Shown: positions 31,145-63,771 of the stretch, one piece after another
Numbering within the stretch: the first letter of the stretch is position 1
Layout of the letters: every line of letters begins with the position of its first letter
Assembly (NCBI GenBank): GCA_021846985.1
Contig: JAJZVX010000004.1
Span: 124,001-188,000, forward strand
Direction of reading: 5' to 3'
Length of the DNA stretch: 64,000 nucleotides
From: Acidobacteriota bacterium
GTDB lineage: Bacteria; Acidobacteriota; Terriglobia; Terriglobales; Acidobacteriaceae
Translations under genes and position numbers: made by a program
The notes under the pieces: model-generated
What the model was told of the DNA's origin: nothing
Seen by the model: the letters and a program-made list of their open reading frames with translations, nothing else
Database searches by the model: none

Positions 31145-31981
31145 TCACACCCGCAGTTCCCGCCGCGCCGTCTCCGCCACCCGCTCCAGGTCCGAGGTTG
31201 TGAGCACGCGAATCCGGTGCTCTTCCATCGTCTCCACGCCGAAGCGGTACATGGCCAGCCGCTCCGGATCCTCTCCGGTCGCGCCCAGCCGCGCCGCGGG
31301 CTCCACCACCGCCGTCAGTTCCAGCCCCGCCTTCTCCACCCGCTCCACTCCGGATCGCAAACCCGGCGCCGAAAACGCCAGCACCTTGGCCATCTCCACG
31401 CCCGGCTCCAGGCTCACCGCGTGAAACATGCGGATCACTCCGTTGGGCCGGTAGCCAAGATCGATGCGCAGCGGATCGCCCGGCCGCGTGTACTCCGACG
31501 CCGCAATGCGCTTGCGCAGAAGATCCCACACTCCGGCCTGTTCAAACTCGCTGCGCATCCGGGCTTGAATCGCCGCCCGGCCGCTCAACCGCTGCACGCG
31601 CTCCCGCGGAGGCGGCTCCACGTAGAGCTTCATCAGCTCTTCCACGCCGGCCGGAAGACTCTCCGCCAGATAAGCCTTGGGCTCGGTCATCTGCACGCTC
31701 AACGAAAGCGACTCGTCCAGCAGGCGCATCAGCCGCCCTTCCGGCTCTTCCTGGAACCGCCTGCGCAGCTCGCTCTCCATGCCTTCCAGAAGCGCGGTAT
31801 CGGCCTGCGGATCCAGGCAGCGCACCCGGCGCCAGTCGCGCGTAAACCGCACCTGCGCCGGCTCCCGGCTGCCCTGCTCGCGCAGAATCACCCCAATATG
31901 AACATACTCGTTCCGCACCGCGTCCGGCACATACCGAAGCAGTTGAAACTCGCAAGCCCGTCTTGGCGTTGCTCCGCTCAT
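31145..31981 (-). CDS. DUF3037 protein
   Basis: A 278-residue soluble protein of the DUF3037 family. The N-terminus has the family signature CEFQLLRYVPDAVRNEYVH followed by IGVILRE, a strand-helix unit. The rest is helical with Arg/Glu repeats (LEGMESELRRRFQEEPEGR). Members are commonly found next to HipA-like kinase genes, and here it directly follows one. The biochemical role is unknown. It sits inside a phage structural operon, between terminase and portal, so it is accessory cargo rather than a virion gene. Confidence 0.8.
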   Translation of the reverse strand: MSGATPRRACEFQLLRYVPDAVRNEYVHIGVILREQGSREPAQVRFTRDWRRVRCLDPQADTALLEGMESELRRRFQEEPEGRLMRLLDESLSLSVQMTEPKAYLAESLPAGVEELMKLYVEPPPRERVQRLSGRAAIQARMRSEFEQAGVWDLLRKRIAASEYTRPGDPLRIDLGYRPNGVIRMFHAVSLEPGVEMAKVLAFSAPGLRSGVERVEKAGLELTAVVEPAARLGATGEDPERLAMYRFGVETMEEHRIRVLTTSDLERVAETARRELRV

Positions 31982-32041
31982 GACTCCATTGCAGCCTTCA
32001 GCTCCCAGCCCTTAGCCGCATCCTCGTCCCCTTGTTCCCTT

Positions 32042-32115
32042 GTTCCCTGTCTTCGTGCTCCCTCGTTCCCTGTCTTCGTGCTCCCTCGTTTCCTGCTTCG
32101 TGCTCCCTCGTTTCC
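32042..32115. repeat. 23-bp tandem repeat
   Basis: Two identical 23-bp units (32042-32064, 32065-32087; GTTCCCTGTCTTCGTGCTCC then CTC), a 22-bp variant (32088-32109) and a partial unit (32110-32115). It fills the gap between the HipA-like kinase and DUF3037 genes, just after the kinase stop. Similar G/A-rich runs occur in other gaps of the window (4020-4064, 29430-29600). Confidence 0.85.
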
Positions 32116-32132
32116 AAACCTTACTTCCCTGT

Positions 32133-33005
32133 CTAATGCACTCTCCCCACGATGCTAGACCCCCACGGACCTGCTTTCCAATCTCCTTTTTCTCCCGCCT
32201 GCTCCCCTCTTCCCCATTTTGGAAACGGCTCCCGGTCCGACCGCCTGAATCCCTCAATCAGTTCCCGGATCCGCCCTCTCCGCCGGAGCAGCTTTTCCAC
32301 CAGCGCCTCCATCTCGGCCAGGTCGCCTCCGTACCACTCCGGAGGCACTTCGCCCGCCGCCGCCCACACCGTTTCCTCCGGCATGGTCTCCAAACGCATC
32401 AGCCACGGCTCGAAGGCCTCCCACCCCGCAATCTCCCGGTAGACCTCGTTGCGGTAGTAGACGCCCCGCAGCGGCGCATCCTCGAACCGCCACTCCCCAG
32501 CATGAAAGCAGTATCCGAAGTCGATAAAGACCGCCCGATACCGCCGCTCCCGCTGCCGGCGCGCGAACACCGCCTGACGTCCGTTGGCGTTCCCCGTCCA
32601 CTTGTCCAGGGCCAGGATGCCCGCAAACTCCGCCAGATTTCTCACCTCGGCCAGTTGTTCCGCAGGCAGATAATCCACCACCTGTCCCGGCATCAATCCG
32701 CCCACAAACCGCGATCCAAATTGCAGGCCCGGCTGGCATCGCTCCCGCGTCCGTCCCAGGTCCATCTCCAGTTCCGGCGTGTTCTCCACCAGCCAGCCCG
32801 ATACCTCCACCAACTCCACCTGCGGCACCGTCAGGCCGGCGGCCGCCGCCAGCCGCGAGGCCAGCAGTTCGTTGGCCAGCACCCTCCGGTGCTGCGGATT
32901 GTTCTGGAACTTCACCACATAGATCTGGCCGTCGGCGCCCAGCATCAACTGGCCCTGCGCGCCGCCTCTCATCCGCCGGATATGCTGCACCGCCAGAACC
33001 GCCAA
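32133..33005 (-). CDS. HipA-like Ser/Thr kinase (HipA_2 type)
   Basis: A 290-residue kinase-fold protein of the short HipA-like group (PF20613-type). Key residues: K32 in YVVKFQNNP (ATP-binding Lys), E46 in ANELLASRLA, the catalytic loop D134 and N139 in LDKWTGNANGRQAVF, and D162 in VFIDFGYCF (metal-binding DFG). Unlike canonical HipA it lacks the N-terminal HipA_N subdomain. TTG at 33005 is chosen because GAGGAG is 5-6 bases upstream. It is followed by a DUF3037 gene and both interrupt the phage terminase-portal order. Canonical HipA kinases phosphorylate aminoacyl-tRNA synthetases; the target of this branch is unknown. Confidence 0.82.
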   Translation of the reverse strand: MAVLAVQHIRRMRGGAQGQLMLGADGQIYVVKFQNNPQHRRVLANELLASRLAAAAGLTVPQVELVEVSGWLVENTPELEMDLGRTRERCQPGLQFGSRFVGGLMPGQVVDYLPAEQLAEVRNLAEFAGILALDKWTGNANGRQAVFARRQRERRYRAVFIDFGYCFHAGEWRFEDAPLRGVYYRNEVYREIAGWEAFEPWLMRLETMPEETVWAAAGEVPPEWYGGDLAEMEALVEKLLRRRGRIRELIEGFRRSDREPFPKWGRGEQAGEKGDWKAGPWGSSIVGRVH

Positions 33006-52443: not shown

Positions 52444-54393
52444 GTGGCTCATCGCATTCGCTTGCTCTTGCCGGTTCTGGTTGCCTTGTCTGGTCTGCAA
52501 CTCGCAGCCGCACCGCCCCCGGCCCGCAACCGCTTTCACGTCGCCGTCTACATCCCCGTGGGCGTCGTCGAACAGATGAAGGACCCCGCCTGGCTCCACA
52601 AGTCCTGGAAAGAAATCTCCAGCCAGGTCCACGTCGATAAGGTCTACATCGAGACCTACCGCAGCGGACTTGTCGCCGACGATGCCCTCCTCGATTCCGT
52701 CCAGCAGTTCTTTGTTGACCATGGCGTCCAGGTCGCCGGCGGCATTGCTTATGTCGGCGGCGGCGACAACGCGGGCCGTGTCGGCAACTTCAAGGTCACC
52801 CAGAAGGTCGAGCCCGGACAGTTCATCTCCCTGTGCTACACCGACCCCGCCCAGCGTGAATTCGTCCAGCACATTGCCCAGCTCACCGCCCGCCGCTTCG
52901 ACGAGATCATCCTCGACGACTTCTTCTTCTACAACACCAAAACCGCCTCCGATATCGCCGCCAAGGGGGACGGCAGTTGGACCGATTTCCGCCTGCGCAC
53001 CATGGACGATGTCGCCCGCAACCTCGTTGTCGCCGCCGCGCGGCATGTCAACCCCAAGGTCAAGGTCATCATCAAATTCCCCAACTGGTACGAGCACTTC
53101 CAGGCCAACGGTTACGACCTCGATCAGGAGCCGAAGATCTTCGACGGAATCTACACCGGCACGGAAACCCGCGATCCCGTCTTCAACGATCAACACCTCC
53201 AGCAATACGAAAGCTACGAAATCGTCCGCTACTTCAACAACGTCGCCCCCGGACGCAATGGCGGCGGCTGGGTCGATACCTACGGCACTCTCTACCTCGA
53301 CCGCTATGCCGAGCAGCTATGGGACACCCTGCTGGCCAAAACCCCGCAGATCATGCTCTTCCAATACAGCGATCTGCTCCGCGCCGCCCAGGTGGGCAAT
53401 CGCTCGGCCTGGGACAAACTCGACACCACCTTCAACATGGAGGATCTCGATAAATGGAGCGCCCGCGGTGGCGCCGCCGGCCCGCCCACCTACGCGGCCG
53501 CCGCAGGTTATGCGCTCTCCGAGATCAATGCCATCGTTGGCCAGCTCGGCAACCCCGTCGCCATCGCCAACTACAGGCCCAACCAATCCATCGGTGAGGA
53601 CTTCCTGCCTAACTACCTGGGCATGATCGGCATCCCCATCGAGATGTACCCCGACTTCCCCACCCAGGCCAAAACCATCCTGCTCACCGAAGATGCCAAA
53701 TTCGACCCGCGGATCGTCAGCAAGATCAAAACGCATCTCCTGCAGGGCGGAACGGTCATCATTACCAGCGGGCTCCTCAAGGCTCTCCAGGGCGATGGAC
53801 CCAACCGAATCGGGCAAATCGCCGAGATCGCCATCACCGGCAACCAGCTCAGCGCCGACCACTACCAGGGATTCTTCGGCATGCCCGGCGGCGCGCTGCC
53901 TCACAACATCCTCGTGCCGCAAATCTCCTTCATGACCAACGACGCATGGCCCGAGGTTCGCCTCACCGCCAACGGCAACGGCGCCCCGCTCCTCCTGGAG
54001 GATCACTACGCCAACGGCCTGCTCTACGTCCTCGACATTCCCGACAATCCCTTCGATCTCTATGCCCTGCCGCAGCCGGTGCTCACCTCGCTCCGCCGCT
54101 TCCTGCTGCGCGGCTTCCCGGTGCAGTTCGATGCGCCCAGCCAAATCGCCCTCTTCACCTACGACAACAACACCTTCGTCGCCGAGTCTTTCCTCGACCA
54201 TCCCGCGGCGGTCACGGTTTCCCTGGCAGGCACGGGCCGCCATCTCCGCAATCTCCTCACGGGACAAGTGCTCGCTGGCCAGGCGCCACCCCCCATCAAA
54301 ACGCCGTTCGGACGGCCTCTGCCGCCTCCGCCTGCCACGGAATTTCACATCGCCGTGCAGCCGCACAGCTTCGCAGCCTTCGCCGAGCAGTAA
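52444..54393 (+). CDS. Large secreted protein, GH42-like architecture, unknown function
   Basis: A 649-residue exported protein. GTG start with AAGGAG 9 bases upstream; a signal peptide (residues 1-24, LSGLQLAAA). The first half looks like a TIM barrel, with FHVAVYIPVGVVEQM near the start and EIILDDFFFYNTK, a candidate acid, near 155; VIIKFPNWYEHF and IFDGIYTGTETRD follow. From about 380 a flavodoxin/GATase-like domain (YLGMIGIPIEMYPDFP, GGTVIITSGLL) is followed by a C-terminal beta-sandwich. This order resembles GH42/beta-galactosidase-type enzymes, but no known family is recognised. A sugar-active role is inferred from fold and from its polysaccharide neighbours. Confidence 0.6.
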   Translation: MAHRIRLLLPVLVALSGLQLAAAPPPARNRFHVAVYIPVGVVEQMKDPAWLHKSWKEISSQVHVDKVYIETYRSGLVADDALLDSVQQFFVDHGVQVAGGIAYVGGGDNAGRVGNFKVTQKVEPGQFISLCYTDPAQREFVQHIAQLTARRFDEIILDDFFFYNTKTASDIAAKGDGSWTDFRLRTMDDVARNLVVAAARHVNPKVKVIIKFPNWYEHFQANGYDLDQEPKIFDGIYTGTETRDPVFNDQHLQQYESYEIVRYFNNVAPGRNGGGWVDTYGTLYLDRYAEQLWDTLLAKTPQIMLFQYSDLLRAAQVGNRSAWDKLDTTFNMEDLDKWSARGGAAGPPTYAAAAGYALSEINAIVGQLGNPVAIANYRPNQSIGEDFLPNYLGMIGIPIEMYPDFPTQAKTILLTEDAKFDPRIVSKIKTHLLQGGTVIITSGLLKALQGDGPNRIGQIAEIAITGNQLSADHYQGFFGMPGGALPHNILVPQISFMTNDAWPEVRLTANGNGAPLLLEDHYANGLLYVLDIPDNPFDLYALPQPVLTSLRRFLLRGFPVQFDAPSQIALFTYDNNTFVAESFLDHPAAVTVSLAGTGRHLRNLLTGQVLAGQAPPPIKTPFGRPLPPPPATEFHIAVQPHSFAAFAEQ

Positions 54394-54521: not shown

Positions 54522-54530
54522 TGCTAAACT
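54522..54530 (+). promoter_or_regulatory. Extended -10 promoter of the ACP operon
   Basis: TG-C-TAAACT matches an extended -10 element (TGnTAnnnT). It would start RNA near 54537, upstream of the GGAG site and ATG of the acyl carrier protein gene. Confidence 0.45.
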
Positions 54531-54565
54531 GAATTCCACACGAGACTTTGGAGATGATTTCCGCT

Positions 54566-54805
54566 ATGGACGAACAACAGATTTATGCCCGCCTGGCAGA
54601 AATCTTTGAAGACGTCTTCGATGACGATTCCATCCAGGTCACGCCGGATCTCTCGGCCAAGGATGTCGATGGCTGGGATAGCCTTTCCCATATCCGGCTG
54701 ATTCTTACCGTTGAAAAAGCATTTAAGATCAAGTTCTCGACTTCGGAGATTGGCAAGCTCGAAAACGTTGGCGACTTGGCGGCGCTCATCAAGGCCCGCA
54801 TTTAG
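54566..54805 (+). CDS. Acyl carrier protein
   Basis: About 80 residues, the size of a free-standing ACP. The phosphopantetheine Ser is S39 in DGWDSLSHIRL, and acidic helix II (LTVEKAFKIKF) follows, the partner-binding face. ATG 54566 is preceded by GGAG at 12 bases; ATG 54554 is an alternative. It is the first gene of an operon with an FkbH-like protein, an SGNH protein and an MBOAT, and probably carries the acyl group used by them rather than serving fatty-acid synthesis. Confidence 0.92.
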   Translation: MDEQQIYARLAEIFEDVFDDDSIQVTPDLSAKDVDGWDSLSHIRLILTVEKAFKIKFSTSEIGKLENVGDLAALIKARI

Positions 54806-55092
54806 TTTTTTCTCGCGGCCTGGGGTTCTTCTATGTGCTTCTCCCGGCAATTGGATGACTGACAATAGCAGGTTTTCTCAAACGGTCCAGAGTCGTTCCA
54901 ACCGCAACTGCAGAAGCCGTGCGGCATCATCTGGAAGAGTGTCTTGCCCTGTTCTCAAAAGGGTTTGCGGACTCCGAACCTGCATGCAAGGTTGCGCCCG
55001 AGGCTGCCGGCTTTCGCGGCGCATCGACGCTTGGTAAACCGCCGCGCATATCGAGGAACGCTCGCGCCGCCGGCAAGGATGCGAATTCGCCC

Positions 55093-57024
55093 ATGAACGC
55101 GCTTTACTCCGAACTGCAGTGGCTGCCCCGCCCGCCGCGTGACTTCCCCGCGAGACTGAAGGCATTGGCGCACGCCTCTGACCCGCTGGGCCGGGAGTTC
55201 CAGTCGCTCGCTCTGCCCGCCCTCGACCTCAATCAGCTTACCCGGCTCGCCAAAGCCATCGACAGGGAACGCGAGGCCGGCAAATCTCTCGCGCCGCTCG
55301 CGCCCTTTCGCCTGGCCGTGCTCAGCAACTCCACCATCGACATGATTGTTCCCGCCCTGGTGGCCAGTGCCGCGCGTCATGGCGTCGCTCTTGAGGTCAT
55401 CCAGCCCTCTTACGACCAGGTTGCCCAGGAAGCGCTTACTCCGGATTCTAGGATCAACAGCGCCAAACCCGATGCTGTCCTCTTCGCCCTCGACTACCGC
55501 GCCCTGCCGCTCAAACTAGTCCCTGGCGATGCCGAAACCTCTACTCGTGTCGTGGACGCCGCCCTCGACTACCTGCAATCCCTGTGCAGCGGCATCAAGG
55601 CCCATTCCACTGCCGTCTGCATTCTGCAGAACTTCGTCCCGCCTCCCGAAACACTCTTCGGCAGCCTCGACCGCGCGCTGCCTGGAACACTCCGCCATCA
55701 TCTCGACGCCATCAATCGAGAGCTTGCTTCACTTACGTTCCAATCGGGCCATGTCCTGCTCGACATTGCCGGCCTGGCCGAAACCGTCGGCCTCGCCAAC
55801 TGGCATAACCCGCAACTCTGGAACATGGCCAAGTTCGCCTTCTCCGGCGAACTCATTCCCCTCTACGCCGATCACGTGGCTCGCACCATCGCTGCTATCC
55901 GCGGCAAAAGCGCCAAGGCTCTCATCCTCGATCTCGACAACACCGTGTGGGGCGGCGTCATCGGCGACGACGGCCTCGAAGGCATCCACATCGCCCAGGG
56001 TGACGCTCGCGGCGAAGCTCACCTTGCCGTGCAGCGGCTCGCGCTCGACCTGCGCCAGCGCGGCATCGTCCTCGCCGTCTGCTCCAAAAATACCGACGAG
56101 ATCGCCCGCCAGCCTTTCGAAAAACAGCCTGAGATGCTGCTCCGGCTCGACCACATCGCCGTCTTCCAGGCCAACTGGAACGACAAGGCCAGCAATATCC
56201 AGGCCATCGCCGAGGCTCTCTCCCTCGGCCTCGATGCCATGGTCTTCCTCGACGATAATCCGGTCGAGCGCGGCCTCGTCCGCCAGCTACTGCCTCAAGT
56301 CCGTGTCCCCGAGCTGCCCGAGGATCCCGCCGGCTACGCGCGCACCCTGGCTGCCGCGGGCTACTTCGAAGCCACCGCCTTCGCCGCAGAAGACCTCCAG
56401 CGCGCCGGCTTCTATCAGGACAATGCCCGCCGCGCCACCCTGCAAAAACAGATGGGAGGTGTCGATGCCTACCTCGCCTCGCTCGACATGACCATCACCT
56501 TCCAGCCCTTCGACGCCACCGGCCGCGCGCGCATCGTACAGCTCATCAACAAGTCCAACCAGTACAACCTCACCACCCGCCGCTACACCGGCCCGGAAAT
56601 CCTCGAAGCGGAAAACGATCCCCACGTCTTCACCCTCCAGGTCCGCCTTGCCGACATCTTCGGCGACAACGGCATGATCAGCGTCGTCATCTGCCGTCCC
56701 GCAGCGGAGGGCGTTTGGGACATCGACACTTGGCTAATGAGCTGCCGTGTCCTCGGACGCAAGGTAGAACACATGGTTCTGGCTGAAATCCTGCGCCATG
56801 CGCGCGCCGCCGGCATCTGCAAGCTTACGGGAACCTACAAGCCCACCGAGCGCAACCAGCTCGTTGTCGATCACTATGCCCGTCTCGGATTCGTCAAGGT
56901 GGCCGAAGAAACGTCAGGCCTTACGCGCTGGGAGATGAACGTTCACAGCGCTTCTCCCGAGCAAGCTCCCATGAAGATTGTCTCGCAGGGTTTTGCTGCG
57001 GCCGGGGAGACGCTGCACGCATGA
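55093..57024 (+). CDS. FkbH-like HAD-IIIC protein with C-terminal GNAT domain
   Basis: A 643-residue protein. The N-terminal about 260 residues have an SGNH-like fold (FRLAVLSNSTIDMIVPAL). A HAD-IIIC domain has ILDLDNTVWGGVIGDDG (D280, D282 catalytic), CSKN (C330, which in FkbH proteins takes the glyceryl thioester) and FLDDNPVERGLV. The C-terminal about 150 residues look like a GNAT acyltransferase. FkbH enzymes load D-glycerate from 1,3-bisphosphoglycerate onto an ACP, and an ACP gene is directly upstream. ATG 55093 is chosen; the frame is open to 54919. It overlaps the next gene by 4 bases. Confidence 0.9.
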   Translation: MNALYSELQWLPRPPRDFPARLKALAHASDPLGREFQSLALPALDLNQLTRLAKAIDREREAGKSLAPLAPFRLAVLSNSTIDMIVPALVASAARHGVALEVIQPSYDQVAQEALTPDSRINSAKPDAVLFALDYRALPLKLVPGDAETSTRVVDAALDYLQSLCSGIKAHSTAVCILQNFVPPPETLFGSLDRALPGTLRHHLDAINRELASLTFQSGHVLLDIAGLAETVGLANWHNPQLWNMAKFAFSGELIPLYADHVARTIAAIRGKSAKALILDLDNTVWGGVIGDDGLEGIHIAQGDARGEAHLAVQRLALDLRQRGIVLAVCSKNTDEIARQPFEKQPEMLLRLDHIAVFQANWNDKASNIQAIAEALSLGLDAMVFLDDNPVERGLVRQLLPQVRVPELPEDPAGYARTLAAAGYFEATAFAAEDLQRAGFYQDNARRATLQKQMGGVDAYLASLDMTITFQPFDATGRARIVQLINKSNQYNLTTRRYTGPEILEAENDPHVFTLQVRLADIFGDNGMISVVICRPAAEGVWDIDTWLMSCRVLGRKVEHMVLAEILRHARAAGICKLTGTYKPTERNQLVVDHYARLGFVKVAEETSGLTRWEMNVHSASPEQAPMKIVSQGFAAAGETLHA

Positions 57025-58247
57025 CGCAGCCCGCCGGGTCCACCCCTCCTGAACCGGAGAAATCGAAACTCCCGCCGCGGGACTGGCTGCTTCTGCCGCT
57101 GCTCGGCCTGCTGACCGTCTGCCTCGTCGCCGCCTTGACGGAATTCCTCGCCCGCCGCGCCTTCTCCGACTCCGTGGGCCATCGTCCCGCCTGCAGCGTC
57201 CGCGACGACAACCCCCAAGGCGCCCGCGCAACTCCCAACTCCATCTGCTGGGAAAAACCTCCTGAAGGCTCGTTGACCCGCTACGACTTCAACCGCTGCG
57301 GCGACCGCGCCGGCATGGAGTGCGGCGTCAAGCCTCCCGGCGTCTACCGCATCGTCGTCACCGGAACCTCGGTGGCCGAGGGGCGCTATGTTCCCCGCGA
57401 ACAAACCGTCGCCGTCCTGCTGCCCACCGCTCTCTCCCGCCTCGCCGGCCGCCCCGTTGATCTCTACAACGCCAGCACCATGCAGGGATTCCTCGACAGC
57501 ACCCCCCTGCGCCTCGACGATCTTCTCGCCAACAAGCCCGACCTGATTCTCTGGCTGGTCACGCCTCTTGACGTCTGGAACTCTTCGTTTGTCTCTTACG
57601 ACGCGCATCCTCCCGCGCTGCCCGCGAGCGCCGGCAAGGCGCTCTCGCTCCAGCGCGCCTGGTACCTGCTCCGTAAGGCCTACGCCGCGGGCTCCGTGCA
57701 GGAGGTCGTCCGCGATCACTTCGACCGCACCCGCACCGCCTTCGCCCTGCGCTATCTCCTTTTCGAGAGCCAGAGCCAGTACGTCAAGTCCTACCTGATG
57801 GGCCCCGACAGCGAATCCGGCTACCTGAAGTCCGATCTGAGCCCCGGCTGGCGCCAGCGCCTGCAACACTTCGACCAGGATGTCGCCCTTTTGCGTCAGC
57901 GTGCCGCCGCCTCCGGTGTCCAGCTTGCCGTGACCCTGATTCCCTATCGCGCTCAGGCCGCCATGATCTCCATGGGCCGCTGGCCCGCCGGCTACAACCC
58001 TTATCGGCTCGACAACGAAATGCGCGCCATCGTCACCCGCAACGGCGCCATCTATCTCGACATCCTGCCCGGCTTCCGCGCCATCCCCAACCCCGAGCGC
58101 GACTACTTCCCCGTCGACGGCCACCCCAATGCCCGCGGTGAATCCATCCTCGCCCGCCTCCTCGCTGACCAGCTTTTCGCCCAGCGCGTGCCAGCTCCCA
58201 AACCACCCGGCCGCCAACCCATCCTGCTGAAGCAGGACCGCAAATAA
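57021..58247 (+). CDS. Membrane-anchored SGNH/GDSL-like protein
   Basis: A 408-residue protein with one N-terminal membrane helix (about 22-41) and the rest periplasmic. The catalytic Ser is S117 in VVTGTSVAEG (block I), with Asn-containing YNASTMQGF later and D366/H368 in FPVDGHPNARG (block V). This is the plan of DltD, AlgX/AlgJ and other SGNH proteins that work with MBOAT acyltransferases. It overlaps the FkbH-like gene (ATGA) and is 2 bases before the MBOAT gene, so the set is one operon. Confidence 0.88.
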   Translation: MTQPAGSTPPEPEKSKLPPRDWLLLPLLGLLTVCLVAALTEFLARRAFSDSVGHRPACSVRDDNPQGARATPNSICWEKPPEGSLTRYDFNRCGDRAGMECGVKPPGVYRIVVTGTSVAEGRYVPREQTVAVLLPTALSRLAGRPVDLYNASTMQGFLDSTPLRLDDLLANKPDLILWLVTPLDVWNSSFVSYDAHPPALPASAGKALSLQRAWYLLRKAYAAGSVQEVVRDHFDRTRTAFALRYLLFESQSQYVKSYLMGPDSESGYLKSDLSPGWRQRLQHFDQDVALLRQRAAASGVQLAVTLIPYRAQAAMISMGRWPAGYNPYRLDNEMRAIVTRNGAIYLDILPGFRAIPNPERDYFPVDGHPNARGESILARLLADQLFAQRVPAPKPPGRQPILLKQDRK

Positions 58248-58249
58248 CC

Positions 58250-59686
58250 ATGGATACGGCTTCCTTCCAGTTCGTGCTCTTCGGCCTCGCCGTAGCGGTG
58301 GTCTCGAACTTCAGCCGCGCGCGTCTCTGGCGTTCGGCAGTGCTGTTCGCTGCCAGCCTGCTCTTCCTCGGCCTTGCCGCGCATAACCCCTGGGCCTTTC
58401 TTCCCCTGGCTGGCTTCCTCCTTCTCGGCTACGCCGCCATCGTGCTGCTGGAGCGCGGCTGGGTGCGCTCCTCCGCCTGGTTCATCGTGGCCGTCCTCTT
58501 TGTCTACATCTGGCTCAAAAAGTACACCTTCCTCCCCGAAACCATCTTCCTGCGCTCGCCCTATTTCACCCTCGGCCTCTCCTACATCTTCTTCCGCGTC
58601 CTGCATGTCGTCATCGAAACTGGCGACCGCACCCGCAGGCGGCACATTGGCCTCGGCGCTTACCTCCTCTATACCCTCAACTTCACCACCCTGGTCTCCG
58701 GACCCATCCAGCCCTACGACGAGTTCGCCCGCGACCAGTTCGCCGTCCAGCCCATCCCTCTCGATGCTCGCGTCGTTGGCCTGCAACTCGAACGCATCGT
58801 CCGCGGATTCTTCAAGGTCAACGTCCTGGCCATGATCTTCGACATGGTCCGCATTGACGCCCTCGCCCAGCTCTCCTACGCTCTGCCTCTGCCGCTCAAG
58901 CTTTACGCGGCCTTCCGGCTCGTCCTCATGTATCCGCTCTTCCTCTACTGCAACTTCTCCGGCTACATCGATATCGTGATCGCCCTCGCCCGGCTGATGC
59001 GCGTCCGCCTGCCGGAGAACTTCAACCGGCCCTTCTCTGCCTCCTCGGCCCTCGACTTCTGGAACCAGTGGCACATCACCCTCTCCAACTGGCTCAAAAC
59101 CTACGTCTACAATCCGCTGCTCATCACCCTGATGCGCCGCATCTCCTCGGTCGCTCTCGAACCCCTGCTCGGCGTCTTCGCCTTCTTTGTCACCTTCTTC
59201 CTCATCGGCGTCTGGCACGGCCGCACGTCGGAGTTCATCATGTTCGGCCTGCTCACCGGTGGCGGCATGTCCCTCAACAAGCTCTGGCAGCTTGGCCTCG
59301 CGCGCGCGCTCGGCCGTAAGGGTTACAGAACCCTCGCCCGCCATCCCCTCTACCAGGCCTTCGGCCGCGGCCTCAACTTCGTCTGGTTCTCGTTCACGCT
59401 CTTCTGGTTCTGGGCTTCCTGGCAACAGATCGGCAAGGCCTTCGCCGGCCTGGCGCTCGCGCCCTGGCTCGCCGTCTGGCTGGCCGCGTGGCTCTTTGCC
59501 GCGGTCGTCTTCAGCCTGTGGGAGTGGATTCGTCCCGCGCTCTTGTCGGTCACGGCCGCCGGCTCGCCCCTCTTCACCAGCCGCTATGCGCGCGTGGTCT
59601 ATGCCTCGGCTATGGGCCTGGCGGCCTTTGTTATGACCTTCCTGCTCAACCAGCCTGCGCCCGGCATCGTCTATCGCGCCTTTTAA
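58250..59686 (+). CDS. MBOAT family O-acyltransferase
   Basis: A 478-residue membrane acyltransferase of the DltB/AlgI type. About 11 hydrophobic segments; the conserved catalytic His is H323 in VWHGRTSEF, with a second conserved His H275 in FWNQWHITLS and ENFNRPFSA before it. MBOATs move an acyl group across the membrane to a surface polymer or lipid. Its partners are an ACP, an FkbH-like protein and an SGNH protein, which suggests an ACP-bound donor. It converges with the VOC gene 15 bases away. Confidence 0.94.
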   Translation: MDTASFQFVLFGLAVAVVSNFSRARLWRSAVLFAASLLFLGLAAHNPWAFLPLAGFLLLGYAAIVLLERGWVRSSAWFIVAVLFVYIWLKKYTFLPETIFLRSPYFTLGLSYIFFRVLHVVIETGDRTRRRHIGLGAYLLYTLNFTTLVSGPIQPYDEFARDQFAVQPIPLDARVVGLQLERIVRGFFKVNVLAMIFDMVRIDALAQLSYALPLPLKLYAAFRLVLMYPLFLYCNFSGYIDIVIALARLMRVRLPENFNRPFSASSALDFWNQWHITLSNWLKTYVYNPLLITLMRRISSVALEPLLGVFAFFVTFFLIGVWHGRTSEFIMFGLLTGGGMSLNKLWQLGLARALGRKGYRTLARHPLYQAFGRGLNFVWFSFTLFWFWASWQQIGKAFAGLALAPWLAVWLAAWLFAAVVFSLWEWIRPALLSVTAAGSPLFTSRYARVVYASAMGLAAFVMTFLLNQPAPGIVYRAF

Positions 59687-59701: not shown

Positions 59702-60106
59702 TCAGGCCTCTACCAGTTCCACCAGCAGGTTGGCTTCCGTCATCAGCCACGCGATCCGGCGCATGGCAAAGGCCACCGCCGGCACTGGCCCGCTGATCAG
59801 AAACGACCCATTCTCCACCAGGTGCCCGATGGCGGCCTCCATCTCGCGCGCTTCATAGCACAGGTGATACGTTCCCCCGCCCTTCTTCAGAATGCGGTCC
59901 ACCGGCGAGTTCGGCCCCAGCGGCGCCACCAACTCCAGCGTCGCATCCCCTGCCCCACGGCTCAGAAAACACACCGAAACGTTCTGGATGGGGTCGTCAA
60001 ACGGTCCCGACGTGACCTCGTACCCGAAGAGCTTCTGGTACACCGGAATCGCGGCCGTCAGATCCTTCACCGCGATCCCCACGTGATGAAAACGGAACCC
60101 CTCCAT
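59702..60106 (-). CDS. VOC-family (glyoxalase-like) protein
   Basis: A 134-residue protein with two beta-alpha-beta3 modules. Metal-ligand candidates are the His pair in FHHVGIAVKDL and the Glu in LELVAPLG of the first half, and the His of TYHLCYEA with the last Glu of ELVEA in the second. Closest in plan to methylmalonyl-CoA epimerase or glyoxalase-like enzymes, often a helper in acyl or sugar metabolism. GGAAAG lies 5 bases before the ATG at 60106. It follows araD on the same strand; its function with the MBOAT operon is not known. Confidence 0.86.
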   Translation of the reverse strand: MEGFRFHHVGIAVKDLTAAIPVYQKLFGYEVTSGPFDDPIQNVSVCFLSRGAGDATLELVAPLGPNSPVDRILKKGGGTYHLCYEAREMEAAIGHLVENGSFLISGPVPAVAFAMRRIAWLMTEANLLVELVEA

Positions 60107-60170: not shown

Positions 60171-60863
60171 TTACCGCTGTCCGTAGGTCGCGTTTGGCCC
60201 ATGCTTGCGCTCGTAGTGGCGCCGCAACAAGGCCGGCGACACCTCGCCCAGCCCCGGGTTGATCTGCCGGCTGCGATACGCCATCCGCGCCACGTACTCC
60301 AGTACCACCGCGTTGTGCGCCGCCTCGGCCGCCGTACGGCCCCACGCAAAGGGCGCATGGCCCGCCACCAGCACCGCCGGCGTCGCCATCGGGTCCAGCC
60401 CCCGGAAGCGTTCCACAATCACACGGCCCGTATTCAGCTCGTAATCGCCTGCGATCTGCTCGTCGTTCAGCGGCGGCGTCACCGGCACTCCGCCGTTAAA
60501 GTAGTCCGCATGCGTCGTGCCGTAACACGGAATCGCCGTCCCTGCCTGCGCCCACGCCGTAGCAAACTCGGAATGCGTGTGCACCACCCCGCCGATCCCC
60601 GTGAACTCCCGGTAAAGCTCCAGATGCGTATCCAGATCCGACGAGGGCTTCAGTCTTCCTTCCACAATCCTGCCGTCGAGATCCGTAATCACCAGGTCCG
60701 AAGCCTGCATCGCCTCGTACGGCACCCCGCTCGGCTTGATCGCCACCAACCCTTCCCCGCGATCCATCCCGCTGGCGTTGCCGAAAGTGTAAAGAATCAG
60801 TCCCCGCCTCTGCAGTTCCAGGTTCGCTTCCAGAACCGCCTCTCGTAATTCTGCAAGTAGCAT
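60171..60863 (-). CDS. araD: L-ribulose-5-phosphate 4-epimerase (AraD-type)
   Basis: A 230-residue class II aldolase/epimerase. Zinc ligands are in VVHTHSEFATA (HTH) and GHAPFAWG; NASGMDRGEG and IKPSGVPYEAM form the phosphate and substrate site, and TTHADYFNG is AraD-typical. ATG 60863 with GGAAAGG upstream is preferred to the ATG at 60887. It links pentose metabolism (L-arabinose) to xylulose 5-phosphate. Related UlaF/SgbE proteins share these motifs, so the exact substrate is not fixed. Confidence 0.9.
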   Translation of the reverse strand: MLLAELREAVLEANLELQRRGLILYTFGNASGMDRGEGLVAIKPSGVPYEAMQASDLVITDLDGRIVEGRLKPSSDLDTHLELYREFTGIGGVVHTHSEFATAWAQAGTAIPCYGTTHADYFNGGVPVTPPLNDEQIAGDYELNTGRVIVERFRGLDPMATPAVLVAGHAPFAWGRTAAEAAHNAVVLEYVARMAYRSRQINPGLGEVSPALLRRHYERKHGPNATYGQR

Positions 60864-60933
60864 CTTCGCCTTTCCATCCGCCGCCAAACCACTTCCATTC
60901 TATGCAAGCTGGGACGGCCTACCGTCGCCGCTC

Positions 60934-62229
60934 CTACGAGGCGACGGCTTTCTCTTCCCCAGCCCGCGCATGTATCGACAGCCCTTGGATCAAATACGCC
61001 ACCTGCACTGCCAGCGCGCCAAATGCCGTAAAGAGATTCATCTTCAACACGCCCTCCGAGCTGTTCAACGGCAACAAAATGACGCAAACCGCCTGTACCA
61101 CCGTCAGCACAACCACCTGCAGCGTACCGCTCCACCAGAATACCCATTTCCTCGCCGAGGCAATAGCCCACATCGAGTTCAGAAAGTAACCGACCGCCGC
61201 GCTGTATACCACCAGTTGCACCTGGTATGTTAGGTTGCGATATTTCGAGCCGAGAATGAACAGATAAATCTCCGGAAAAAGCCAGGCCGAAGCGGCGATT
61301 GCGATCCCCGCGGTGGCCGTCGCGCTCAAAGCGTAGACCAGGCGCCTGTAAAACTGCGCCCGCGGCGTCTTGGCAAAGAACGGCATCACCAGCACGGTGT
61401 TGGATGTCCCCAGCAACAGGAAGATCTGCCCGATCCTGCTGGCCGCTGCCACCTCGGCTATCTGGCTCATGTGGCCGAAGATGGTGATCAGAAAAAGAGA
61501 AATCTGCCCCTGCAGGGCGGTGTAGATATACATGGGAACCAGCGGCGCAAGGTAGCGAATCATCTCCCGGGCCTGCTCCCTCGGAAATCTCCGCGGCAGC
61601 GTGATCCACGGCCGCGCCATAACCCTGTAGGCCACGCCCGTGGCCACATACATCGCCGTGTTCACCCAGATCACGGTGACCGCGGAGATGATATGCAGGT
61701 AGTAAAGAACAAAGACGCCCGCTAACCTGCACAGCGCCGAGCCCACCTGGGGCGTGTAGAAAGCGACAAGCCGCGTGTGCAGCAGGAGCGGAGCTTCATA
61801 GTAGGCTGTCCAAGCCTGAAATTGAAGAGTTACCAAAACCGCGATTGCAAGCAGGATGATCTCCGTCCCGCCGTGTGATTCAAACCGCGTGTTACGCAGC
61901 AGGATGACCGCTGCAAAAGCAATGAAGGTAACCACCAGCACCAGACCGCGCCGGATCGCGCTCGCCGCATAAATGTACCTTCCAAGCACCTCCTTTTCCC
62001 GATGCCGCGTGCCCGTCAGCCCGATAATTGCCCCGCTGAACCCCACCTCCGTCAGCACCGTAATCATGGACTGCGCGCCCAGCGCCAAGGCGTACATGGC
62101 GAATTCCGGCTTGGACAGCAGGCGAAGCAGCACCAGTCCCGCCGCCGCATTGAGCGCCTGCACGCTCCCCTGCCCGCCGACAAAGGCCGATACCCGCTTC
62201 CCGATGCGTTTAATGGAAGCCAGATTCAT
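60934..62229 (-). CDS. Wzx-type polysaccharide flippase (MATE/MOP superfamily)
   Basis: A 431-residue protein with about 12 hydrophobic segments and no soluble domain, the Wzx/RfbX plan. The N-terminus has a basic start (IKRIGKRVSAFVGGQGSVQAL) followed by LVLLRLLSKPEFAMYALALG, the family-typical helix pair. It would flip undecaprenyl-linked sugar repeats to the periplasm. It is in a minus-strand polysaccharide group with a GT-A enzyme, an acetyltransferase and a probable GT4 enzyme. Confidence 0.88.
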   Translation of the reverse strand: MNLASIKRIGKRVSAFVGGQGSVQALNAAAGLVLLRLLSKPEFAMYALALGAQSMITVLTEVGFSGAIIGLTGTRHREKEVLGRYIYAASAIRRGLVLVVTFIAFAAVILLRNTRFESHGGTEIILLAIAVLVTLQFQAWTAYYEAPLLLHTRLVAFYTPQVGSALCRLAGVFVLYYLHIISAVTVIWVNTAMYVATGVAYRVMARPWITLPRRFPREQAREMIRYLAPLVPMYIYTALQGQISLFLITIFGHMSQIAEVAAASRIGQIFLLLGTSNTVLVMPFFAKTPRAQFYRRLVYALSATATAGIAIAASAWLFPEIYLFILGSKYRNLTYQVQLVVYSAAVGYFLNSMWAIASARKWVFWWSGTLQVVVLTVVQAVCVILLPLNSSEGVLKMNLFTAFGALAVQVAYLIQGLSIHARAGEEKAVAS

Positions 62230-62289
62230 GCGCTCAGCGCCCTGCTGCTTCCGGATCTCGAGATATGACCATGCGCTCTTTGCCTCTTT

Positions 62290-63066
62290 CTATCCTCTTC
62301 CCCGAAGCCGTCTCAACTTCACTCTCAGCTCGTGGGCAAGCCGGCCCGGCGTTGAAATCTCGCTCGTCGCGCTATAAAAATACGACGTGTTTTCCACCTC
62401 AAAAGGCGTCTTCTTATTTGCAACCACAAATTCCGCCGGGCTGTTGCTTACTTCGTTTTCCCACCCCCCTCGCTGGTTCGCGCCGCGCCGCAGCAACTCC
62501 TCGTAGGAAAGCCGGCACAGAAGTTCCCGGCGGATAATCGAAACGGCATTCCCAAAATACTTCTTCGGGTGATAAAGCCCCAGTTCCTCGCGATAAGGCC
62601 GATCGGGAAGAAAATCCGGCCCGTGAAACGACGGATCGAGATGGAGCAGGTTAAACCCCATGATCTTGGGATCCTCCTCCATCACGCGGATCGCCAGATC
62701 GATCCACTGCGCGCACTCCTGCTGCGAACCAGTGACGCTTACATCGTCGTCAAGATGCAGTATGTAAGGCGACACTGCCAGTTGTACCGCGCCCACATAA
62801 CCAAAATTGCAATGTGCCGGATGAGCCACGCTGCAATACTCCACCCGCGTAAACTTCTCCAGCAGATGCGTCGAAGCCAGCAGTCGCAACGCGCCCAAAT
62901 CGGGACTGCGATCGTCCAGGAAGATCTTCTCCGCAAAAGGCAGATCCAGCAGATCCCCCCACGACGACAGCGCCCGCAAAACCATCGCCTTGCGCGCGCC
63001 CGGACGCCTCTTCAGATAAGAGCATGTTGCAAAAGCAACGGGCTGAAGAAAATTTGTCTTCCCCAT
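62290..63066 (-). CDS. Glycosyltransferase, GT-A fold
   Basis: A 258-residue enzyme. ATCSYLKRRPGA and FLDDRSPD are the nucleotide-binding region, and LHLDDDVSV is the metal-binding DxD motif of GT-A enzymes. The remaining part has SIIRRELLCRLS and NPAEF-like regions; no membrane segment. The acceptor and donor sugars are unknown. GGATGGGGG precedes the ATG. It lies 60 bases upstream of the flippase in the same direction and is probably co-transcribed. Confidence 0.8.
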   Translation of the reverse strand: MGKTNFLQPVAFATCSYLKRRPGARKAMVLRALSSWGDLLDLPFAEKIFLDDRSPDLGALRLLASTHLLEKFTRVEYCSVAHPAHCNFGYVGAVQLAVSPYILHLDDDVSVTGSQQECAQWIDLAIRVMEEDPKIMGFNLLHLDPSFHGPDFLPDRPYREELGLYHPKKYFGNAVSIIRRELLCRLSYEELLRRGANQRGGWENEVSNSPAEFVVANKKTPFEVENTSYFYSATSEISTPGRLAHELRVKLRRLRGRG

Positions 63067-63153
63067 CCCCCATCCTTTCCGCAGGCGGCTTCTGCCTTGC
63101 GCGCCGCTTGCTATCCAGCTTTCCTCATGCCGTCGAAATTCCCTGCCGCGGTC

Positions 63154-63771
63154 TCAACGTCCTTCCTGCTTCTCTCCCGCGGCGCCTATCCCGGCTCCCG
63201 GCACGGCATCTTCCTTCATCCGCCGCTCGCCAATCACCTTTGCCGGCGAGCCCACCGCAATCACGCCCGGCGGAATATCCTTGAAAACCGAGCTCCGCGC
63301 TCCGATCACCGCGCCATAACCCACCGTCACGCCCGGCCCCACATAGACATCGGCCGCCACCCATGCCTCCGGCCCGATCGCAATCTTCTTCGCCAGCAGG
63401 TCAAACCGCGGACTCGTGTGGTCGTGGTAGCCGGTGCATAAATACGACCGCTGCGACACCACCGCGCAATCCCCTATCTCGATCTCGCCATAGGTATAGA
63501 GATGAACCTCATCGCCAATATGGCTGTAGTCCCCGATTGTCAGCTTCCATGGATAGGCAGTCTTCACGGACGGCCGTATGATGGCTCCCCGCCCGATCTT
63601 CGCCCCGAAAAGCCGCAGCAGCCACCTGCGCCATCCGTAGCAGACCTGCGGCGACAGCGCAAAAAGCGTCGCTTGCGTCAGCCACCAAAGCTGCACATAA
63701 ACCCTCGATCGCCCCCGAAATCCCGGAGGCACCCGAAACTGATCGAGTTGCTGATACTTTCGCGCATCCAT
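63154..63771 (-). CDS. WcaF-like polysaccharide O-acetyltransferase
   Basis: A 205-residue left-handed beta-helix acetyltransferase of the WcaF (colanic acid) type. Hexapeptide repeats run from about residue 55 (KIGRGAIIRPSV, IGDYSHIGDEVHL) to about 180 (VGPGVTVGYGAVIGARS), with the catalytic His in TGYHDHTS. The C-terminus GSPAKVIGERR is family typical. An N-terminal helical stretch precedes the helix. It acetylates an exopolysaccharide sugar using acetyl-CoA (family knowledge). Confidence 0.87.
   Translation of the reverse strand: MDARKYQQLDQFRVPPGFRGRSRVYVQLWWLTQATLFALSPQVCYGWRRWLLRLFGAKIGRGAIIRPSVKTAYPWKLTIGDYSHIGDEVHLYTYGEIEIGDCAVVSQRSYLCTGYHDHTSPRFDLLAKKIAIGPEAWVAADVYVGPGVTVGYGAVIGARSSVFKDIPPGVIAVGSPAKVIGERRMKEDAVPGAGIGAAGEKQEGR

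Follow-up and report, generated by a model that had tools for sequence, protein, structure and literature searches.

The window analysed here is a stretch of 64,000 nucleotides (nt) from an Acidobacteriaceae contig (JAJZVX010000004.1, assembly GCA_021846985.1), and within positions 54566–59686 it contains four plus-strand genes that we examine as a candidate export-acylation system. They encode an acyl carrier protein (ACP), an FkbH-family protein, an SGNH protein and an MBOAT protein (Table 1), and all four are present as named in a preliminary description of this DNA that was made from its letters alone. That description also reported overlaps between the genes; the FkbH and SGNH genes indeed overlap by 4 nt, while the SGNH and MBOAT genes lie 2 nt apart and the ACP and FkbH genes 287 nt apart. 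The best start of the ACP gene is the ATG at 54566, and the relative in the sister genome G008 begins MDKSQIYARL. For the FkbH gene, the start of the longest open reading frame (ORF) at 54919 was rejected, since the orthologues in G008 and in a further sister genome, G005, begin at an ATG aligned with position 55093.

Table 1 Features of the operon and of the adjoining region (positions in the window).
Feature	Position	Strand	Basis
ACP, dedicated acyl carrier protein, 79 aa	54566..54805	+	phosphopantetheine Ser39 (DSL); PF00550, 27.2 bits
FkbH-family loader, 643 aa: FkbH_N, HAD-IIIC phosphatase, C-terminal GNAT-fold domain	55093..57024	+	TIGR01686
SGNH protein, membrane-anchored, 408 aa, Ser117 and His368	57021..58247	+	predicted fold, invariant residues
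DltB-like MBOAT, 478 aa, His323	58250..59686	+	PF03062, 55.4 bits
Hexapeptide IVYRAF at the MBOAT C-terminus, acyl-Tyr shuttle motif (FxYxxF type)	59666..59683	+	motif comparison
VOC-fold protein resembling methylmalonyl-CoA epimerase, in convergent orientation to MBOAT	59702..60106	-	TIGR03081, 59.9 bits
Class II aldolase/adducin family gene, neighbour only	60171..60887	-	PF00596, 166.8 bits
Adjacent polysaccharide cluster, start	60934..63771	-	flippase-like and glycosyltransferase-like ORFs, hexapeptide acyltransferase

The ACP scores above the Pfam PP-binding cut-off of 20.8 bits, and its Ser39, assigned earlier, lies in the DSL motif. Since the same genome encodes a second, canonical fatty-acid ACP (114.1 bits, against 27.6 for the operon ACP), the evidence supports a carrier that is dedicated to the operon. 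The FkbH protein reaches 279.5 bits against TIGR01686, well over the cut-off of 146.65, which bears out its description as an FkbH-like HAD-IIIC protein. Its predicted structure (predicted local distance difference test score, pLDDT, 89.8) superimposes on BF1531 (PDB 3slr) in its N-terminal and HAD parts with a TM-score of 0.93 by target, and matches GNAT acetyltransferases across ~170 residues, a stretch that we place at the C-terminus. According to passages of PMC7489565, FkbH proteins of tetronate and methoxymalonyl pathways form glyceryl-ACP from 1,3-bisphosphoglycerate. In an alignment of 89 FkbH sequences, which included four from plasmid polyketide or peptide-type clusters and excluded L056 (a cut FkbH), L068 and L109, the HAD residues Asp280, Asp282, Thr284, Ser331, Lys365 and Asp387 are invariant. 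The cysteine of the CSKN motif at position 330, to which a catalytic role had been attributed in the preliminary description, is Cys in 63 sequences, Ser in 21, Ala in 3 and Val in 2, and it is Ser in the G005 and G008 orthologues; Cys330 was rejected as a catalytic residue because it is replaced in these 26 of the 89 sequences. The motif Ser550-Cys551-Arg552 in the GNAT-fold domain is invariant, so that Cys551, and not the variable position 330, is the candidate acyl-holding cysteine. One FkbH match found in the genome search (L133, genome G257) carries a single in-frame TAG.

Pfam matches of the SGNH protein all fall below the cut-off, and its structure was therefore predicted (mean pLDDT 77.9). 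The best structural matches are SGNH/GDSL enzymes, with PatB (8tlb) at rank 41 (E 1.1e-3); in VIA-align, the model aligned with 8a2n at Z 21.0, with a root-mean-square deviation of 4.6 over 243 residues, and with many esterases at Z 14 to 16. Together with Gly115, Ser117 and His368, which are invariant across 15 SGNH sequences, the predicted fold confirms the family named at the outset. Both SGNH motifs occur in a neighbour gene at 41 of 50 MBOAT loci, as counted by hand with a loose pattern. Two loci (L032 and L048) have a tandem pair of SGNH genes adjoining the MBOAT gene, which may correspond to two acceptors or to a transferase and an esterase. The MBOAT assignment is likewise upheld, with PF03062 above its cut-off and His323 invariant in 19 sequences. 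DltB is the nearest solved MBOAT: a profile of the 19 MBOAT relatives finds DltB (6bug) with E 4.3e-69.

The C-terminus of the MBOAT protein ends in IVYRAF, a relaxed form of the FxYxxF shuttle motif. According to passages of PMC12148441, PatA acetylates the tyrosine in a C-terminal FxYxxF peptide, and the same motif is described in DltX. Among 50 FkbH-linked MBOAT ORFs of more than 300 residues (a set without the MBOAT of Tistrella, L025, and without the split one of L032), a strict FxYxxF terminus is found in 37 and the relaxed form, [hydrophobic]xYxxF, in 43, against none of the 760 other genes of at least 250 residues. In a later sample, drawn with the FkbH of the window alone as the query, 10 of 13 MBOATs (two of the 13 being identical) carry the motif at the C-terminus. 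The C-terminal string of one annotated DltB (L163) also happens to fit the relaxed motif.

Seven of the 50 MBOATs lack the motif. In one of them (L065) an apparent frameshift is followed by the motif in a different frame, and the other six are DltB-sized (402–415 residues). A microprotein ending in xYxxF is encoded beside the MBOAT or SGNH gene at all six of these short-MBOAT loci and at none of the 44 long-MBOAT loci, and no further such ORF was found in the 835 kb of loci scanned. The rule for recognizing microproteins was set after the examples were known and then used unchanged on new loci, where the scan also returns the C-termini of long MBOATs. In the later sample, the three MBOATs without the motif (L138–L140) each have a microprotein ending in NLVYQAF directly upstream. 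Twenty control regions (360 kb), taken at round coordinates from five Acidobacteriota genomes, contained no DltX-like microproteins. Thus nine of nine intact, motif-less FkbH-linked MBOATs (L045, L068, L075, L099, L103, L107 and L138–L140) are accompanied by a DltX-like microprotein, perhaps six independent cases, as L138–L140 are a single close lineage and L045 and L075 are sisters. The microproteins, all from Gram-negative phyla, have ~25–52 residues, one hydrophobic stretch (one transmembrane helix) and the C-terminal xYxxF. In a quick tree, unbootstrapped, arbitrarily rooted and with long branches, from which we claim little, the MBOAT of the window falls in a set of 15 rows, all from FkbH-bearing genomes or loci, that stands apart from a larger group and mixes fused-shuttle and microprotein types.

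To place the operon among its relatives, the FkbH of the window was used as a query (E 1e-60) against 247 Acidobacteriota genomes and gave 30 matches in 23 of them. By a hand tally of coordinates, an MBOAT match lies no more than 3 kb away from 15 of the 30 matches (in 14 of the 23 genomes), on the same strand in 14 cases, and for the best matches (E 1e-105 or lower) the proportion is 14 of 16. Only 33 MBOAT matches occur in 25 genomes (those 23 with G005 and G008), so chance linkage would be rare. From a separate scan, we examined 80 named loci, the best 80 of 524 confirmed. With marker profiles seeded partly from the loci that were counted, an FkbH gene was called in 79, an ACP gene in 66 and an MBOAT gene in 46; the last figure is no measure of prevalence because of this selection and because the query alignment included MBOAT-linked FkbHs. 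Same-strand FkbH–MBOAT pairs within 3 kb number 41 as counted, with L104 measured from a stray partial match (its true MBOAT lies 22 nt from FkbH). MBOAT-bearing loci include those of Sphingomonas, Bradyrhizobium, Stutzerimonas and Massilia and others in Eremiobacterota, Elusimicrobia, Planctomycetota and Myxococcaceae, and three of the first five plasmid loci carry the set (Rhodobacteraceae SC52, Sinorhizobium meliloti pSymB and Tistrella). These results show that FkbH–ACP–MBOAT sets recur across phyla and that the linkage is not due to chance.

To the right of the operon, the polysaccharide neighbourhood described earlier is borne out. The cluster begins in the window, where it includes a gene for a hexapeptide acyltransferase, and continues past it with genes for a GT2 glycosyltransferase, a WecG-type transferase, an NAD-dependent epimerase, a GDP-mannose dehydratase, an AT3 acyltransferase and a Glycos_transf_1 transferase. 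Its first flippase-like and glycosyltransferase-like ORFs had no Pfam match at 1e-5, and their identities are presumed, as are those of the exopolysaccharide-type genes that we take to adjoin the operon of G005. The preliminary description had asked whether the four-gene set always lies near polysaccharide genes; the set does recur, but a constant association was rejected, as glycosyltransferase genes occur at only part of the FkbH–MBOAT loci. In a crude screen (ten single-seed profiles, two of which were not built), at least two glycosyltransferase genes were found at 4 of the 14 Acidobacteriota loci (L131, among these 14, spans only 5.9 kb) and in 0 of the 20 control regions, which are matched to these loci and not to the named loci; at least one was found at 5 of 14 and in 4 of 20, respectively. 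For the gene counts, P is 0.09 against matched controls and 0.008 in the unmatched comparison. For the named FkbH loci, two or more such genes are seen at 8 of the 38 long loci that have an MBOAT gene and at 5 of the 21 loci that lack one; at least one is seen at 19 and 10 of them, respectively.

The genes that neighbour the set differ between relatives. The VOC protein scores below the cut-off of TIGR03081 (114.95 bits) and has solved relatives; a copy with 68% identity lies beside the MBOAT gene in G008, and a search of five further close loci gave no match. None of the six loci of relatives that were searched matched the aldolase/adducin gene. In G005 the operon is complete, and a MaoC-SDR fusion (L018:14896-16329) takes the place of the VOC gene directly downstream of the MBOAT gene; the genome of the window has no match to this fusion at E 1e-6. 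Between the SGNH and MBOAT genes of G008 (L020) lies an ORF that we take to encode an AT3 acyltransferase. The 80 named loci include 18 with MaoC, as a gene of its own or in fusion with SDR, 16 with a methyltransferase gene and 14 with a VOC gene, a count that omits the VOC gene of L049 as gene picking missed some genes; the 14 Acidobacteriota loci include 2 with VOC and 3 with MaoC, and the 20 control regions 1 and 0. The exchange of VOC for MaoC-SDR between sisters suggests that the C3 acid can be tailored, with the VOC protein as a possible tailoring enzyme. Because of these neighbours, we favour a glyceryl cargo here, perhaps inverted at C2, and would expect a reduced C3 acid in G005. The idea of a lactyl group rests on bryostatin, for which its formation by a dehydratase and a ketoreductase after an FkbH loader has reportedly been found. 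Methylation of FkbH-loaded glycerate in aeruginosins appears in passages of PMC10143770. Four sphingomonad loci (L049, L051, L053 and L061) have FkbH, MBOAT, SGNH and VOC genes, three of them with a methyltransferase gene as well, and the glyceryl-bearing gums of sphingomonads could be made via such a set.

Taken together, we consider it probable that the operon encodes a carrier-protein-dependent, Dlt-like export-acylation system, charged by FkbH, that modifies a surface polysaccharide. Dlt-like logic with FkbH replacing DltA had been proposed in the preliminary description, and the recurrent FkbH–ACP–MBOAT sets, the shuttle motif and the DltX-like microproteins support it; that proposal did not mention the hexapeptide shuttle, the VOC gene or the variants with other tailoring genes. 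Because the motif and the microproteins accompany FkbH-linked MBOATs, FkbH seems, from these sequence features, to take the place of DltA as the loader. In the pathway that we infer, FkbH would take the three-carbon acyl group from glycolytic 1,3-bisphosphoglycerate, probably onto Cys551 of its GNAT-fold domain, its HAD domain would strip the 3-phosphate, and D-glyceryl would be loaded onto the operon ACP, as expected from the enzymology of FkbH proteins. The epimerase-like VOC protein may then invert C2. The MBOAT protein would, at His323, accept the acyl group from ACP and transfer it, on the periplasmic side, to the tyrosine in its C-terminal IVYRAF. The SGNH protein would receive the group from this peptide at Ser117 and esterify a surface polysaccharide, plausibly the product of the neighbouring cluster. 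A surface polymer is, by analogy, the likely acceptor because of the MBOAT/SGNH pair itself.

Several observations weigh against this reading. No MBOAT gene lies nearby at 34 of the 80 named FkbH loci (some contigs being short), and MBOAT is missing beside the FkbH and ACP genes at two of the five plasmid loci opened first. In G008 the ACP–FkbH and SGNH–MBOAT genes lie on different contigs, and the two halves can therefore part. IVYRAF has Ile where DltX and PatA have Phe. Apart from the window, just one of six close loci has the VOC gene beside the set, and a VOC match also occurs in one of the 20 control regions. Polysaccharide genes lie near part of the loci and are no commoner with MBOAT than without. 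The MaoC, methyltransferase and VOC genes imply that something other than plain glyceryl may be exported, and what is shown here are genes, motifs, their conservation and recurrence, and predicted folds.

Three other explanations were weighed. The same machinery might carry another cargo, an ACP-bound C3 acid being converted before export, for example by dehydration and reduction to lactyl or by O-methylation, so that the ester is not glyceryl. The MaoC and methyltransferase genes among the named loci and the fusion downstream of the G005 MBOAT gene speak for such conversions, which we nevertheless regard as improbable at this locus, where no MaoC-SDR gene is seen beside the operon or matched elsewhere in the genome and the VOC protein is the sole added neighbour of this sort. 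To a similarly small degree we credit an acceptor other than a polysaccharide, such as a lipid, a glycolipid or a secreted metabolite. The presence of any glycosyltransferase gene at about half of the named loci with or without MBOAT, and its frequency in Acidobacteriota loci and controls, would fit such an acceptor; however, the operon of the window is bordered by a polysaccharide cluster, and that of G005 presumably by exopolysaccharide-type genes. The MBOAT/SGNH pairs characterized in the passages of PMC12148441, moreover, target envelope polymers.

A far smaller chance is given to the view that the MBOAT and SGNH proteins form an ordinary O-acetyltransferase fed by acetyl-CoA while ACP and FkbH serve a separate pathway. 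According to passages of PMC12148441, PatA uses acetyl-CoA and acyl-CoA is the presumed donor for the other pairs outside Dlt, and the split halves in G008 are as this view would have them. It is difficult to reconcile with the tight, recurrent linkage of FkbH, ACP and MBOAT genes across phyla, with the DltX-like microproteins and with the quick tree, which groups the MBOAT with FkbH-associated MBOATs only.

More tentatively, and with somewhat less than even confidence, we propose that the operon represents a widespread, undescribed class of envelope acylation, in which a carrier is charged directly by a glycolytic acyl phosphate, and not by ATP and a ligase, and works in Gram-negative phyla with a DltB-like MBOAT, a fused or separate shuttle and interchangeable tailoring enzymes. 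If this is true, the VOC epimerase, O-methyltransferase and MaoC-SDR enzymes would set the displayed group as D-glyceryl, L-glyceryl, methylglyceryl or lactyl. If the operon works as inferred above, surface chemistry would be linked to the abundance of a glycolytic intermediate, and the recurrent annotation 'HAD-IIIC phosphatase / ACP / MBOAT' would gain a predicted function. The pathway is directly testable in Sinorhizobium meliloti.

Elsewhere in the window, a protein of 649 residues that is probably secreted and has no Pfam family above cut-off is encoded directly upstream of the ACP gene (52444–54393, plus strand). The minus strand carries at ~22000–43000 a run of tail-, head-, portal- and terminase-like ORFs with a 2604-residue repetitive protein, presumably a prophage, and the ORFs at 31145–33005 inside this run resemble what we take to be a HipA-like pair.

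Among the closest known systems is BF1531 of Bacteroides fragilis, which shares with the loader the FkbH_N and HAD fold and is 33% identical; that structure covers the N-terminal part only, and the title of the entry assigns no function. The FkbH-type glyceryl-ACP synthases Mad7/Mad14, to which we presume OzmB to belong, resemble the operon in the FkbH domain and its HAD motif, in the invariant Cys551 and in having a free-standing ACP. The operon differs from the tetronate and methoxymalonyl FkbH systems in its apparent output, an MBOAT/SGNH exporter. Neither FabH, an acyl-ACP dehydrogenase nor a polyketide synthase was seen beside the FkbH–ACP genes of the window, and no FabH-like condensing enzyme was found among the Pfam-scanned neighbours, the other ORFs being judged by presumed identity; for comparison, Methylosinus L117 has such an enzyme. 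As stated earlier, the system does not appear to have been described: no title or opening of an abstract among the matches listed presents FkbH and MBOAT as one system, in a search that left subscription journals mostly outside its coverage. PMC10143770, the one listed paper that names both, assigns them to different steps of a peptide pathway, and PMC3684757 has MBOAT genes in a polysaccharide cluster and neither 'FkbH' nor 'acyl carrier' in its text. The operon joins FkbH glyceryl loading, known from polyketides, and MBOAT/SGNH shuttle acylation, known from cell envelopes, which were not found joined in print within that search.

With PatA/PatB and the other MBOAT/SGNH pairs (alginate, cellulose), the operon shares a C-terminal MBOAT extension that ends in the shuttle hexapeptide, here in relaxed form, and an SGNH partner with catalytic Ser and His. 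Membership of this group was rejected because the operon also encodes a carrier protein and a loader, whereas these pairs are described as carrier-free and fed by acyl-CoA. Passages of PMC12148441 describe the MBOAT/SGNH pathways other than Dlt as having neither a carrier protein nor a DltX-like microprotein, a rule to which the present system, if correctly interpreted, would be an exception. Membership of Dlt was likewise rejected: no DltA (TIGR01734) scores above cut-off in the genome of the window (eight weak matches, the best with 42.9 of 559.85 bits), and the ACP and MBOAT fall below the equivalog cut-offs of DltC (PRK05087, 25.8 against 68 bits) and DltB (TIGR04091, 160.7 against 375 bits). 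The operon nevertheless has in common with the D-alanylation of teichoic acid by DltA-B-C-D-X a carrier protein, a DltB-like MBOAT, an acyl-Tyr shuttle peptide and an SGNH protein and, in some relatives, a separate DltX-like microprotein; it differs in its loader, which is of the FkbH/HAD/GNAT type and not an ATP-using ligase like DltA, in the fusion of the shuttle to the MBOAT and in its occurrence in Gram-negative phyla.

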